From an uncultured Bacteroidales bacterium (GTDB lineage: Bacteria > Bacteroidota > Bacteroidia > Bacteroidales > Bacteroidaceae): DNA of 64,000 nt. Positions 24,745-36,120 of the stretch are shown here, one piece after another. Position 1 is the first letter of the stretch, and every line of letters begins with the position of its first letter. Under the pieces are notes generated by a model that saw only the letters and a program-made list of their open reading frames with translations, did not search any database and was not told the DNA's origin. Position numbers and translations under genes: made by a program. The DNA is taken from positions 1 to 64,000 of the forward strand of contig CADAGX010000008.1 in the NCBI GenBank assembly GCA_902787575.1, read 5' to 3'.

Positions 24745-25893
24745 CTACAATACGGCGCGCAGTTTCTCTACAAACTCGGCGGCCTCCTGCTGTGTGAGGC
24801 AGAGCGGCGGCAGCAGTCGCAGTGTGTTCGTGCCGGCGCATCCCGTGAAGCAATGCTGCTCGGTGAGCAGGCGGTTGCGTATCTCGCGGTAAGGTTCGTC
24901 CAGTTCGATGCCTATCATCAGTCCGCAGCCGCGCACCTCTGTTATCTTGGGGCTGTGGATTCGGCTGATTTCCTGCATCAGGTAGTCTCCCACCCGACGG
25001 GCGTTCTCCACCAGCTGTTCGCTCTCCATCACGTCGAGCACGGCCAGCGCAGCGGCGCACGCCATGTGGTTGCCGCCGAAGGTGGTGCCCAGCTGTCCAT
25101 AGACGGCCTCGAACTGCGGCCCCACGAGCAGGGCTCCCATCGGGAATCCGTTGGCGATGCCCTTGGCCACGGTAATCAGGTCGGGCGCCATGTCGGCGCG
25201 TTCCTCGGGTGCGAAGAGATGCTGATGTGCGAAGAATCGTCCGCTGCGTCCGTAGCCGCACTGTATCTCGTCGCAGATGAGCACCGTCCCTGTCTCGGTG
25301 CAGAGCTGCCGCAGGCCGCGGTAGAAGTCGGCCGACACGAGTCGGATGCCGCCCACGCCCTGAATGCACTCGATGATGCAGGCCGCCACGTCGCCCTTCA
25401 GCAGTTCGGTGCGCCACGCCTCGAGGTCGTTCAGCGGCAGGAAGGTGACGTGTCCGCAGTCGTTCACCGGCGCCACTATCTTCTTGTTGTCAGTAGCCTC
25501 CACTGCCAGACTTGTGCGTCCGTGGAAGGCCTTCTGCAGGCTGAGTATGCGGCTGCGTCCGGTGTGGAAGCTGGCCAGCTTCAGTGCGTTCTCGTTGGCT
25601 TCCGCTCCGCTGTTGATGAGGAAGAGGCGATAGTCGGGATATCCGCAGGCCTCGCCCAGCCGCTGTGCCAACTGCTGCTGGAGGCGATTGATGACCGAGT
25701 TGCTGTAGAATCCCAGCTGCTGCATCTGTGCCGACAGCGCCTCGATGTAGTGCGGGTGGCAGTGTCCGATGCTGATGACGGCGTGCCCGCCGTAGAGGTC
25801 GAGGTACTCCTGCCCGCGGTCGTCCCACACCTTGCAGCCCCTGCCGCGCACGATGTTCACGGGCAGAAGCGGATAGACATCATATAGTTCCAT
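24745..25893 (-). CDS. argD: N-acyl-ornithine aminotransferase
   Basis: 382 residues, class III PLP aminotransferase, transferring an amino group from glutamate to N-acyl-glutamate semialdehyde. Visible: NSGAEANENALKLA (94-107), KAFHGRT, CDEIQCGYGRSG (208-218) and the Schiff-base Lys244 in TVAKGIANGFPMGA. Substrate may be N-succinyl rather than N-acetyl, in line with argF'. It starts 15 bp after the argC stop. Cytoplasmic. Confidence 0.93.
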   Translation of the reverse strand: MELYDVYPLLPVNIVRGRGCKVWDDRGQEYLDLYGGHAVISIGHCHPHYIEALSAQMQQLGFYSNSVINRLQQQLAQRLGEACGYPDYRLFLINSGAEANENALKLASFHTGRSRILSLQKAFHGRTSLAVEATDNKKIVAPVNDCGHVTFLPLNDLEAWRTELLKGDVAACIIECIQGVGGIRLVSADFYRGLRQLCTETGTVLICDEIQCGYGRSGRFFAHQHLFAPEERADMAPDLITVAKGIANGFPMGALLVGPQFEAVYGQLGTTFGGNHMACAAALAVLDVMESEQLVENARRVGDYLMQEISRIHSPKITEVRGCGLMIGIELDEPYREIRNRLLTEQHCFTGCAGTNTLRLLPPLCLTQQEAAEFVEKLRAVL

Positions 25894-25908
25894 ACGTTTC
25901 GTTTTCTT

Positions 25909-27096
25909 TTAAAATGCACTGGCCTTGAGCCGGAGTCCTTCGCGCTCGTCCAGCCCGCACATCAGGTTCATATTCTGCACAGCCTGCCCCACAGCGCCCT
26001 TGAGCAGGTTGTCGATGCAGCACGTCACGAGCAGCTGGTCGCCGTGCCGCTCGGTGCTGACCAGTGCCTTGTTGGTGTTCACCACCTGTTTCAGGTCGGG
26101 AGCCGCTGCCACATAGTGTGTGAAGGCGGCGTCGGCGTAGAAGTCGGCATATACGCGCGCTGCGTCCTCTGCCGAGACGTTGTCGGGGCAGGTGGCATAG
26201 GCCGTCACGAAGATGCCTCGCGTGAAGCAGCCTCGCTGCGGGACGAAGAGCACGCGGCCGTCGTATCCGGGCGAGAGTTCCTGCACCGTCTGGTTGATTT
26301 CGAGCAGGTGTTGATGCTCGAAAGCCTTATACACCGATATGTTGTCTTGCCGCCAGCTGTAGTGAGTGGTGGCCGTGGGTTTCTGTCCGGCTCCGGTGCT
26401 GCCCGTGATGCCGTTCACGTGAATGTCTCCGCCGAAGAGTCCGGCCTTCAGTGCCGGCAGCAGTGCCAGCTGTATGCAGGTGGCAAAGCAACCGGGGTTG
26501 GCCAGTCGCGTAGCGTGGCGTATCTCGTTGCGGTGCAGTTCGGGCAGGCCGTACACCCACTCGTCTGTCGAGCCGTCGGGTCGCCTCACGCGGAAGTCCT
26601 GTGCCAGGTCTATCACCTTCACTCGCTGCGGGATGCTGTGCTCGCGCAGGAACTCCTCGCTCTTGCCGTGTCCGAAGCAGAAGAACACCACATCCACCTC
26701 GTCGAAGGGCATCTGGTCGGTGAATCGCAGTTCCGTCTCGCCCACCAGTCCGCCGTGCACGTCGCAGACGCGGTTGCCCGCATTGCTGCCGCTGTTGGCA
26801 AACACTATCTCGGCCTGCGGATGATTCGTCAGCAGGCGAATGAGCTCGCCGCCCGTGTAGCCGGCGGCGCCAAGAATTCCAACCCTAAGAAGCCCCCTCC
26901 CCGGGCCCTCCCCGAGGGGAGGGAGTTGAAGCCCCAAAGCCCCCTCCTGGCCTCCACGAGGGGAGGGAGTTGAAGCCCCCTCCTGGCCTCCCCGAGGGGA
27001 GGAAGAATTAGCCCCGAGCCCTTGCTGAGGGGAGGGAGAATTAGAACCCTCCACGAACCCTCCCCGAGGGGAGGGAGTTGTTTGTTTATCTGTCAT
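25909..27096 (-). CDS. argC: N-acyl-gamma-glutamyl-phosphate reductase with repeat-derived N-terminal extension
   Basis: The ArgC core begins at RVGILGAAGYTGGELIRLL (about 26886) and has the catalytic Cys in LANPGCFATC, GITGSTGAGQKPT and VNTNKALVS. It reduces N-acyl-glutamyl phosphate in arginine synthesis. No ATG, GTG or TTG sits directly before the core. The nearest in-frame ATG is 27096, which adds about 68 Pro/Gly/Ser-rich residues encoded by five GC-rich repeats (SPRGG motifs), giving 395 residues against the usual 320-345. The same frame runs on upstream without a stop through the DUF559 domain to 27474 (521 residues in all). Whether the cell makes a fusion, a long ArgC or uses an unseen start is not decidable here. 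Confidence 0.88.
   Translation of the reverse strand: MTDKQTTPSPRGGFVEGSNSPSPQQGLGANSSSPRGGQEGASTPSPRGGQEGALGLQLPPLGEGPGRGLLRVGILGAAGYTGGELIRLLTNHPQAEIVFANSGSNAGNRVCDVHGGLVGETELRFTDQMPFDEVDVVFFCFGHGKSEEFLREHSIPQRVKVIDLAQDFRVRRPDGSTDEWVYGLPELHRNEIRHATRLANPGCFATCIQLALLPALKAGLFGGDIHVNGITGSTGAGQKPTATTHYSWRQDNISVYKAFEHQHLLEINQTVQELSPGYDGRVLFVPQRGCFTRGIFVTAYATCPDNVSAEDAARVYADFYADAAFTHYVAAAPDLKQVVNTNKALVSTERHGDQLLVTCCIDNLLKGAVGQAVQNMNLMCGLDEREGLRLKASAF
26891..27080 (+). repeat. Five tandem GC-rich palindromic repeats
   Basis: Five direct copies of about 33-45 bp, each AGCCCC(CTCC..) then a core close to CCCTCCCCGAGGGGAGGG, then AGTTGA or AGAATT. Cores lie near 26906, 26951, 26987, 27018 and 27058. 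They are translated as the SPRGG-rich linker in front of ArgC. Confidence 0.85.
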
Positions 27097-27474
27097 TGTC
27101 TTTATATTTAATTCCTTTTGTATGCGATTCAGCACTTCGTCCAGTGCGCCAAAGACTTCTTTGTTGGTGAACCTCATCACGCGGAAGCCCATTCGCTGCA
27201 AGACGATGCTACGCATTTCGTCGTGCTCCACTTGTTCGGCTTCGCTGTGGTAACTGCCATCCACCTCTATGACGAGCGACTGCTCTAAGCAAACAAAGTC
27301 GGCTATGTAATCGCCTATGATGTGCTGCCGCTTAAACCTCAGTCCCCAGTCGTTCTGCCGCAGATGGTTCCACAAGAGCGACTCTGCCTCGGTGGGATGC
27401 TGCCTGTTCTCTCTGGCAAACGCCTTTAGCAGCCCATACCTGTCAGTCGAAGCCGTCCTGTAAGCGTAACTCAT
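27097..27474 (-). CDS. DUF559 (Vsr-like PD-(D/E)xK) endonuclease domain, no stop of its own
   Basis: From the ATG at 27474 (MSYAYRTASTDRYGLLKAFA) about 126 residues match DUF559: RENRQHPTEAESLLWNHLRQ (21-40), LRFKRQHIIGDYIADFVC (45-62) and SLVIEVDGSYH (66-76). Glu29/Glu31, Asp59 and Glu70-x-Asp72 give the nuclease-fold acidic set seen in very-short-patch-repair-like enzymes. The frame has no stop and continues through a repeat-encoded linker into ArgC, so any product is fused to ArgC unless cleaved or truncated. It starts 71 bp after the argG stop and is bracketed by GC-rich repeats in opposite orientation. Target and activity unknown; probably a selfish or repair-like unit. Confidence 0.75.
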
Positions 27475-27496
27475 CCCAGCTCTATTCTTCGTTTCA

Positions 27497-27545
27497 CCCC
27501 TCCCCTCTCTTCCCCCTCCCCTCGGGGAGGGACGGGAAGGGGGCT
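27497..27545 (-). repeat. Single inverted copy of the GC-rich repeat
   Basis: Core CCTCCCCTCGGGGAGGG at 27515-27531, flanked by CCCCTTCCCGTCC on the minus strand; in orientation opposite to the five copies at 26891-27080. Together they bracket the DUF559 frame as inverted repeats. Confidence 0.8.
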
Positions 27546-28760
27546 TTACTTCCTTTCCTCCGGATGTGCCAGATAGTACGCGCGCAGGGGCGTACTGGTG
27601 ACCTTGATAAATCCTTTGGCGTCCTCGCTGCTCCAAGCCTTGGCCGTCTCGCCGTACTCGCCCAGCTTGTTCTTCACGAGGTCGTCGGGTGTGTCGCAAC
27701 CCACCGTCTGGAACGAGTATGGGCGCAGCTCCAGTGTCACCGTGCCGTTGACGTGCCGCTGGCTGCTCTCGAGCATGGCTTCCATGTCGGGCATTACGGG
27801 CTCCAGATACTGGCTCTCGTGCAGGAACATGCCATACCAGTTGGCAATCTGGTCTTTCCAGTACTGCTGCCACTTGCTCAGCACGTATTTCTCCAAGAAG
27901 CGGTGAGCGCCGATGATGAGCATGGGAGCAGCGGCCTCGAAGCCCACTCGCCCTTTGATGCCGATGATGGTGTCGCCCACATGGCAGTCGCGACCGATGG
28001 CATACGATGCACCGATGCGCTCCACCTCCTGAATGGCAGCTATCGGGTCGGTATATTCCACGCCGTTCACGCTGCAGATTTCACCTTTGCGGAAGCCGAT
28101 GCTCAGCGTCTCGGAGCCCTGCTTCGTGGGATGCTTCAGGTAGGCACTCTCGGGCAGACCTTGGCGGCTGTCCAGAATCTCGCCGCCGCAGATGCTTGTG
28201 CCCCAGATGCCCACATTGTACGAGTACTTCAGGCGGGCAAAGTCGGCGTTGAAGCCGTGCTGGTTCAGGTAATCCACCTCCTCCTGCCGGCTCAGGTTGC
28301 GGTCGCGCGTCAGCGTGATAATCTCCACTCCGGGCGCCTTCACCAGAAACGTCATGTCGAAGCGTATCTGGTCGTTGCCTGCTCCGGTGCTGCCGTGAGC
28401 GATGGCGTCTGCCCCAATCTCGTTGGCATAGCGCGCAATGGCCAGCGCCTGGAAGATGCGTTCCGAGCTGACACTGATGGGATAGCAGTTGTTTCTGAGC
28501 ACATTGCCGTAAATCATATAGCGCAGGCTCTTCTCGTAGTATTCGTGCGTCACGTCCAGCGTCACGTACTTCACAGCGCCCAGCCGGTAGGCGTTCTCCT
28601 CGTTCTGTCGCAACTGTTCGGCGCTGAATCCGCCCGTATTGGCGCATGCGGCATACACCTCGTATCCCATTTCGCGCGTCAGGTACATCACATTGTAGCT
28701 CGTATCCAAGCCACCACTGAAGGCCACTACCACCTTCTTACGTTTTCCGTTTTCCATCAC
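27546..28760 (-). CDS. argG: Argininosuccinate synthase
   Basis: 404 residues. N-type ATP pyrophosphatase motif AFSGGLDTS (13-21); HGSTGAGNDQIRFD and GRDCHVGDTIIGIKGRVGFE are conserved in the family. It joins citrulline and aspartate using ATP, the penultimate step of arginine synthesis. Cytoplasmic. Its start is preceded by a 189-bp stretch of 7-bp periodic DNA that separates it from the GNAT gene. Confidence 0.95.
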   Translation of the reverse strand: MMENGKRKKVVVAFSGGLDTSYNVMYLTREMGYEVYAACANTGGFSAEQLRQNEENAYRLGAVKYVTLDVTHEYYEKSLRYMIYGNVLRNNCYPISVSSERIFQALAIARYANEIGADAIAHGSTGAGNDQIRFDMTFLVKAPGVEIITLTRDRNLSRQEEVDYLNQHGFNADFARLKYSYNVGIWGTSICGGEILDSRQGLPESAYLKHPTKQGSETLSIGFRKGEICSVNGVEYTDPIAAIQEVERIGASYAIGRDCHVGDTIIGIKGRVGFEAAAPMLIIGAHRFLEKYVLSKWQQYWKDQIANWYGMFLHESQYLEPVMPDMEAMLESSQRHVNGTVTLELRPYSFQTVGCDTPDDLVKNKLGEYGETAKAWSSEDAKGFIKVTSTPLRAYYLAHPEERK

Positions 28761-28783: not shown

Positions 28784-28972
28784 TCTTTTAGCGGTTAGCG
28801 GTCCTCTCACCTATAACCTATGAACTATGAACTATGAACTTTGGCATTTAGCCTTTAGCTTTTGGCCAATAGCCAACAGCGAACTATGAACTATGCACTA
28901 TGAACTATGGACTATGCACTATGGACTATGCACTATGAACTATGGACTATGAACTATGAACTATGCACTATC
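28784..28972. repeat. Tract of drifting 7-bp tandem repeats between the GNAT gene and argG
   Basis: Twenty-seven consecutive heptamers keep one phase while the unit drifts: GCGGTTA, TATGAAC (x3), TTTAGCC/TTTAGCT, TTTGGCC, AATAGCC, AACAGCG, then thirteen units of (A/C/G)ACTATG from 28882. The tract ends inside the stop region of the GNAT gene (stop at 28961) and begins 24 bp upstream of argG. Confidence 0.9.
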
Positions 28973-36020: not shown

Positions 36021-36103
36021 TTCGGGCAGAGCACTGCCCTCACCTCTGCGGCGAACGAATTGACATCCAGTCAATTCTCTCAAAAGAGTCGCCGTTCGCC
36101 CTC
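36021..36103 (+). repeat. Cruciform element E4
   Basis: Same left flank as E3; inner hairpin GAATTGAC (36057-36064), loop ATCCA, GTCAATTC (36070-36077); outer stem GGCGAACG (36050-36057) / CGTTCGCC (36093-36100). The stems differ from E3 in compensating pairs. Confidence 0.75.
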
Positions 36104-36120
36104 TCCGAGGAGAGGGGCAC

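Follow-up and report, generated by a model that had tools for sequence, protein, structure and literature searches.

A putative nuclease-encoding element with translated, inverted ends at the start of argC in an uncultured Bacteroidales bacterium

In an uncultured Bacteroidales bacterium, the gene for ArgC (N-acetyl-gamma-glutamyl-phosphate reductase) is preceded by a unit consisting of a DUF559 nuclease reading frame and GC-rich hairpin repeats. Here we report that this unit replaces argC's own start, with an ATG at the DUF559 end and a repeat-coded arm standing in frame with the ArgC core, and that in most of the loci compared the arms flanking DUF559 match each other as inverted repeats. 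Furthermore, sequence and domain comparisons indicate that many other proteins have related nucleases in frame, either at an end or internally. We consider it probable that the argG–argC insert is a small nuclease-encoding element, composed of a 5′ arm, DUF559, an ATG with its leader and an inverted 3′ arm, which would provide a restart for argC and spread in a homing-type manner. Both the inverted ends and the in-frame recurrence with many other enzymes go beyond the claims of a preliminary description of this locus.

The window, the whole 64,000-nucleotide stretch analysed here, comprises positions 1–64,000 of contig CADAGX010000008.1 (assembly GCA_902787575.1) and belongs to a draft genome of 34 contigs that is 86.9% complete. 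On its minus strand, argR, a GNAT-type gene, argG, the DUF559–linker–ArgC frame and a class-III aminotransferase gene of the argD type follow one another; about 13 tandem copies of the 7-base unit GAACTAT (28881–28971) lie between the GNAT-type gene and argG. The upstream neighbour argG (27546–28760; Pfam Arginosuc_synth and Arginosuc_syn_C) ends in a stop codon at 27548–27546, the last base of which is the first base of the 5′ hairpin arm (27514–27546). Next come the DUF559 reading frame (27100–27474), which has no stop at its end in this genome, an ATG at 27096 with the short A-rich leader MTDKQT (27080–27096), five GC-rich hairpin repeats that form the 3′ arm and are read as a linker (26890–27087), the ArgC core (25909–26892) and the aminotransferase gene (24745–25893; Pfam Aminotran_3). 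From the ATG at 27474 to the stop at 25909 there is a single open frame, 723 residues long from stop to stop. Its residues 17–122 match DUF559 (Pfam PF04480; 108.1 bits, curated cut-off 20.6) and the remainder is ArgC, as indicated by relatives, by Pfam matches to both semialdehyde-dehydrogenase domains and by the NCBIfam model TIGR01850 (297.9 bits, cut-off 233.6). The preliminary description of a stop-free frame with DUF559, a repeat-coded linker and a complete ArgC core is thus confirmed by the sequence, Pfam and NCBIfam. Within the draft assembly, the ArgC core of this frame is the sole full argC match.

In most relatives, ArgC begins with M[IV][RKN][VI]GILGAAGYTGGE or with a short ATG leader. 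The window has CTT CTT AGG GTT (LLRV) at the native start position, where it reads LLRVGILGAAGYTGGE. The reported loss of the ArgC start codon holds directly before the core, but the linker does contain in-frame starts, namely ATG 27096 (68 codons before the core), GTG 27054 and TTG 26937. A+T makes up 80% of the 20 nt upstream of ATG 27096, where the local mean is 43.5%; the corresponding stretches of other starts nearby range from 55 to 90%, and that of the proposed DUF559 start is less A+T-rich (0.55 versus 0.80). In 11 other argC loci, DUF559 ends in its own stop, and an argC-frame ATG overlaps this stop or lies within 8 nt of it. To locate this leader ATG, we scanned the argC frame from a point 12 nt short of the DUF559 match end and took the first ATG. 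Its position relative to the last base of the DUF559 stop ranges from 19 nt before to 8 nt after, and it lies 7–25 codons ahead of the ArgC core. Because an ATG stands at the same place in these 11 loci and the upstream context is A+T-rich, ATG 27096 is most likely the ArgC start in the window, to judge by the sequence. A full DUF559–ArgC fusion may also be made, since the window lacks the stop with which DUF559 ends in the other 11 loci. Of the three start options proposed earlier, these two therefore persist, with ATG 27096 ahead, whereas the third, a non-standard codon right at the core, was rejected as unneeded, given the argC-frame ATG at the DUF559 end in the 11 other loci.

Two other explanations bear on this junction. 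ArgC might be made only as a bifunctional DUF559–linker–ArgC protein initiated at ATG 27474, as the uninterrupted window frame would allow; this is distinctly unlikely, as the 11 other loci combine a DUF559 stop with an overlapping or close argC-frame ATG, and ATG 27096 occupies the same place in an A-rich context that the DUF559 start lacks. Alternatively, an error in sequencing or assembly, or a frameshift that arose recently, may account for the missing DUF559 stop, leaving an ArgC start at 27096 unaffected. The draft state of the genome, the retention of the stop in the 11 other loci and the stops present in another frame just before ATG 27096 speak for such a loss, whereas stop-free DUF559 junctions in other hosts (described below) speak against it, and we regard it as unlikely.

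We collected 181 distinct argC sequences and left out three with less than 450 nt upstream, so that 178 loci remained, of which 123 belong to the window's genus and 55 lie outside it; 132 of the 139 genomes of the genus had a match, and 125 had a locus in the comparison of argC starts. In the commonest state, seen in 166 of the 178 loci, argC follows argG, has a normal start and is not preceded by DUF559. Although such relatives had been set as a case against the original reading, they represent the empty site and thereby favour an insertion. Twelve of the 178 loci, the window included (6 of 123 in the genus and 6 of 55 elsewhere), have DUF559 directly upstream of argC, and a GC-rich hairpin lies in the argC N-terminal frame in 15, two of which (L171 and L199) are false. 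DUF559 and the hairpin occur together in 8 loci and neither occurs in 159 (Fisher p 1.3e-7, with loci treated as independent of ancestry); L118, with a repeat-coded leader that is apparent by eye and was missed by the hairpin filter, was scored as having neither. In 10 of the 12 DUF559 loci (9 of 11 without the window), the frame of ArgC extends back through a hairpin arm, and L016 and L132 are DUF559 loci whose repeat-coded leaders the filter missed. Three loci count against reading the insert as an element: the 3′ arm is lacking beside DUF559 in L204 and L219, and in L157, which is yet among the 12, DUF559 is a degraded remnant. The argC-frame ATG at the DUF559 end in relatives supports the earlier proposal that the ArgC start depends on an invading nuclease–repeat unit.

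The repeats themselves form a pair of inverted ends. As first described, five GC-rich repeats (copies at 26896–27087) code for the linker; a sixth copy (27504–27543), upstream of DUF559, pairs with the 3′ copies as an inverted repeat over 30 nt with 83% complementarity. The three forward frames of the 199-nt array contain 0, 0 and 2 stops, compared with a mean of 4.4 over three frames in simple shuffles, 8 of 2000 of which had none. In a structure model of the fusion, most of the ArgC core is confident and linker residues 121–192 score below 50; the DUF559 part is poor because its alignment had no DUF559 relatives.

To compare arms between loci, we took 50 distinct DUF559 loci and scored the 250 nt that precede DUF559 against the reverse-complemented 300 nt that follow it; these loci include DUF559 regions, part of a batch of 20, that were picked by hand, mostly for long frames; a separate set of 40 regions, likewise hand-chosen mostly for long frames, was used for no rates. 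The median score of a locus's own pair was 47, versus 21 across loci. Own pairs exceeded the cross-locus 95% value of 41 in 33 of the 50 loci and were unbeaten by any cross pairing in 22, and the window's arms scored 51, with 47 as the best cross-locus pairing. Control flanks from 23 argC genes without the element had a median of 18 and a 95% value of 20.9, and 200 random stretches of AroB loci gave 17 and 22.0, respectively. All but two loci (48 of 50) scored above the control value of 22, the exceptions being L099 and L332; the flanks of L099, at 21, are no better than controls, which counts against the element reading. A phylum-wide set ranked solely by DUF559 score gave a weaker signal, with a median of 31.5, 22 of 30 loci above 22 and 8 not, 14 of 30 above the set's own cross-locus 95% value and 9 of 30 the best of their row. 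Also counting against an element, no target-site duplication was found at 33 loci (mean 1.58 nt, versus 1.50 for cross pairs).

DUF559 is widespread and recurs in frame with other proteins. Within the window's genus, 22 of the 41 genomes searched have a match (53 matches, 10 of them in frames of at least 300 residues); the family has matches in 80 of 251 genomes and 13 of 30 genera, and Bacteroidota, among the matches listed, in at least 84 of 198 genomes and at least 59 of 103 genera. Each host protein was checked by Pfam with one or two sequences, and further copies were named by eye. Pfam detects host domains on both sides of DUF559 in MiaB, UvrA, a CapF-like enzyme, a helicase, LeuRS, MetH, HsdR and a Type ISP enzyme. 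Several host stretches accompany DUF559 in a DegT aminotransferase and a SpoIID protein, the best one alone being given here, and in a UDP-sugar epimerase the part after DUF559 was assigned by eye. DUF559 stands ahead of Gmk, LeuC, LeuB, IspF, an SDR protein and RNase H, and behind IspG, ApgM and a PurL-type amidotransferase (Pfam). Before rmlB, malY, purD and cysS, we recognized by eye a DUF559 that ends in a stop of its own and is followed by a leader ATG and an arm read in frame.

Some of these cases favour the view that ArgC is made only as a fusion: DUF559 inside MiaB, UvrA, LeuRS and MetH has a plain reading as part of one protein, and the translated stretch from DUF559 to the host domain contains no methionine in L301 (Gmk) or in L396 and L398 (IspF). 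Gmk is single, and in the DUF559 frame, in all four genomes listed as 99% complete, and two genomes listed as 100% complete, one consisting of a single contig, each contain the C-terminal half of LeuRS once; the DUF559-fused Gmk or LeuRS was the only copy found in the six genomes checked. Repeat-coded arms flank DUF559 inside single genes as well. In L379, two DUF559 units lie close together, one before leuC and one before leuB, and L390, from another genome, has several DUF559 matches, one of them before leuB. The DegT-type aminotransferases of L394 and L395 contain further repeat-coded segments in the same frame as DUF559. Outside the family, DUF559 is in frame in Type ISP, DNA methylase, HsdR and HsdM proteins (L416, L417, L422, L424 and L432), and repeat-coded segments adjoin it in most of these restriction–modification cases.

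By its predicted structure (mean pLDDT 85.0), DUF559 has a Vsr/I-Bth0305I-like fold. Foldseek matched the model to 3hrl (E 2.3e-6), I-Bth0305I (E 5.0e-5) and Vsr (E 6.1e-3), and the match to 3r3p at the sequence level is weak (E 0.034). Residues E70, D72, H76, D59 and others are invariant in seven argC-site DUF559s. PADLOC gave weak matches, the best to Hhe (E 9.9e-6), with a homing endonuclease model at E 2.4e-5. Internal stops occur in 7 of 115 distinct DUF559 sequences. A search for intron RNA across 25700–27800 of the window and 14 loci gave no Rfam hit that attained the gathering score, and no intein or splicing (Hint) domain was found in Pfam scans of the window protein and the fusions scanned.

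On the argC tree, in which L171 and L199 were set to 'no element' since they keep the native ATG, the 17 element-marked rows are scattered, with 17 changes needed and at least 8 forced by supported branches, and the element-marked argC genes are no more clustered than in shuffles. This scatter fits repeated gain or loss of the putative element, and a single ancient argC insertion inherited by all carriers is not supported. On the DUF559 tree, which is weak (118 columns) and, like the argC tree, has few well-supported branches, 11 site labels require 15 changes, compared with a shuffled mean of 31.9. Copies at one host gene tend to group, and a single supported clade (96) unites those in the epimerase, CapF-like, DegT and UvrA genes; such grouping by site would fit either homing or inheritance. 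The argC-site DUF559s fall in several places of this tree, and its supported branches do not force more than one origin.

These observations suggest a mechanism for the proposed element. Ribosomes that finish DUF559 would restart at ATG 27096 and produce ArgC with a 68-residue, probably disordered tail, and some DUF559–ArgC fusion would be made too, the DUF559 stop being missing. The Vsr/I-Bth0305I-like nuclease would cut the empty site, and repair of the break would copy the element in. Stop-poor arms and a portable start codon may allow it to land in operons without killing genes, and it would be tolerated because the frames of its neighbours are kept open. Once it is in place, imprecise loss would cost the cell argC, which may stabilize the element.

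Several known systems share features with the argC insert. REP repeats are moved by RAYT, a Y1 transposase. Like REP/RAYT systems, the window has dispersed GC-rich hairpins beside an enzyme gene; unlike them, it has DUF559 rather than a Y1 transposase between the arms, and one Y1_Tnp match lies elsewhere in the genome. Inverted terminal repeats and nuclease-less copies recall MITEs and insertion sequences, but the unit contains no transposase, no target-site duplication was found and the ends are translated. As with inteins, a nuclease domain is nested in frame in conserved enzymes; without the Hint domain of inteins, for which Pfam scans of the fusions gave no match, the insert would remain part of the protein. 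The EDxHD homing endonuclease I-Bth0305I and Vsr, as described in PMC3943268, offer a similar nuclease fold and a small selfish-type gene near or within host genes, whereas in our loci no intron or intein domain was found and translated inverted arms and an ATG leader are added. Rickettsia palindromic elements, as described in PMC10969869, are about 150 bp long and encode a conserved peptide and no nuclease. They, too, are palindromic DNA lying in frame in genes for metabolic proteins and translated (PMC10969869), as are the palindromes at the ArgC start and loop and in GltD and AroB here, but the arms of our loci are about 30–40 nt long, vary between loci and often flank a nuclease gene. The insert is not classed as a Rickettsia palindromic element, transposon, intein or intron because each fails a tested defining feature; by analogy, it would act like a homing endonuclease with translated ends. 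Searches of an open-access collection of papers gave none that appears to describe such an element.

More broadly, the chances seem evenly balanced that these loci represent a distinct class of selfish elements distributed through Bacteroidota, in which a homing nuclease of Vsr/I-Bth0305I-like fold, bounded by translated hairpins and bringing a portable start codon, is read, without splicing, in frame in, before or after essential genes. Its nuclease-less copies would account for scattered translated palindromes, and its own ATG would make loss costly. Such a class, if real, would join two puzzles, the source of translated palindromes and the presence of unspliced nuclease genes in essential genes. 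Single-copy Gmk and LeuRS genes with a nuclease domain are natural tests of foreign-protein tolerance. Automated gene calling will place such starts wrongly, and annotation based on domains will be misled by DUF559 fusions.

Repeats are also found away from DUF559 in the window's genome, which counts against the element reading. With palindromic sites scored on both strands, the repeat core matches 17 times forward and 22 times in reverse at up to two mismatches, compared with 0 forward and 1 reverse for the same pattern read backwards. Repeat-coded in-frame inserts occur in GltD, the glutamate synthase small subunit (L337), and AroB, the 3-dehydroquinate synthase (L338), of this genome, and most of the aligned relatives lack them; inserts similar to that in GltD of the window's genome are found in GltD of L250 and L254. 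In ArgC itself, the loop after DLAQDFR contains in-frame GC-rich arm pairs in L016, L100, L124, L220 and L222, and a degenerate pair in L087 (identical to L182). These copies without DUF559 are what would be expected if a self-spreading REP-like repeat settled in stop-tolerant places and a DUF559 gene came to lie among such repeats by chance. The single Y1_Tnp match in the window's genome (L452, G000:C1:149956-150246, E 6.3e-9), unlinked to the DUF559 unit, points the same way, as this enzyme could be a mover of the repeats. Nevertheless, the arms on either side of DUF559 match each other far above controls and better than they match most other loci's arms, and they flank DUF559 within single genes too, so that coincidence appears very improbable beside a nuclease-encoding element with inverted ends. 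In L019, L083 and L223, the same ArgC loop has A+T-rich, repeat-like in-frame inserts of another kind, which indicates that the loop tolerates insertion. A second hairpin subtype (CCCTCTCCTCGGAGAGGG) lies at 36099–36116 of the window and recurs at several other places in the genome.
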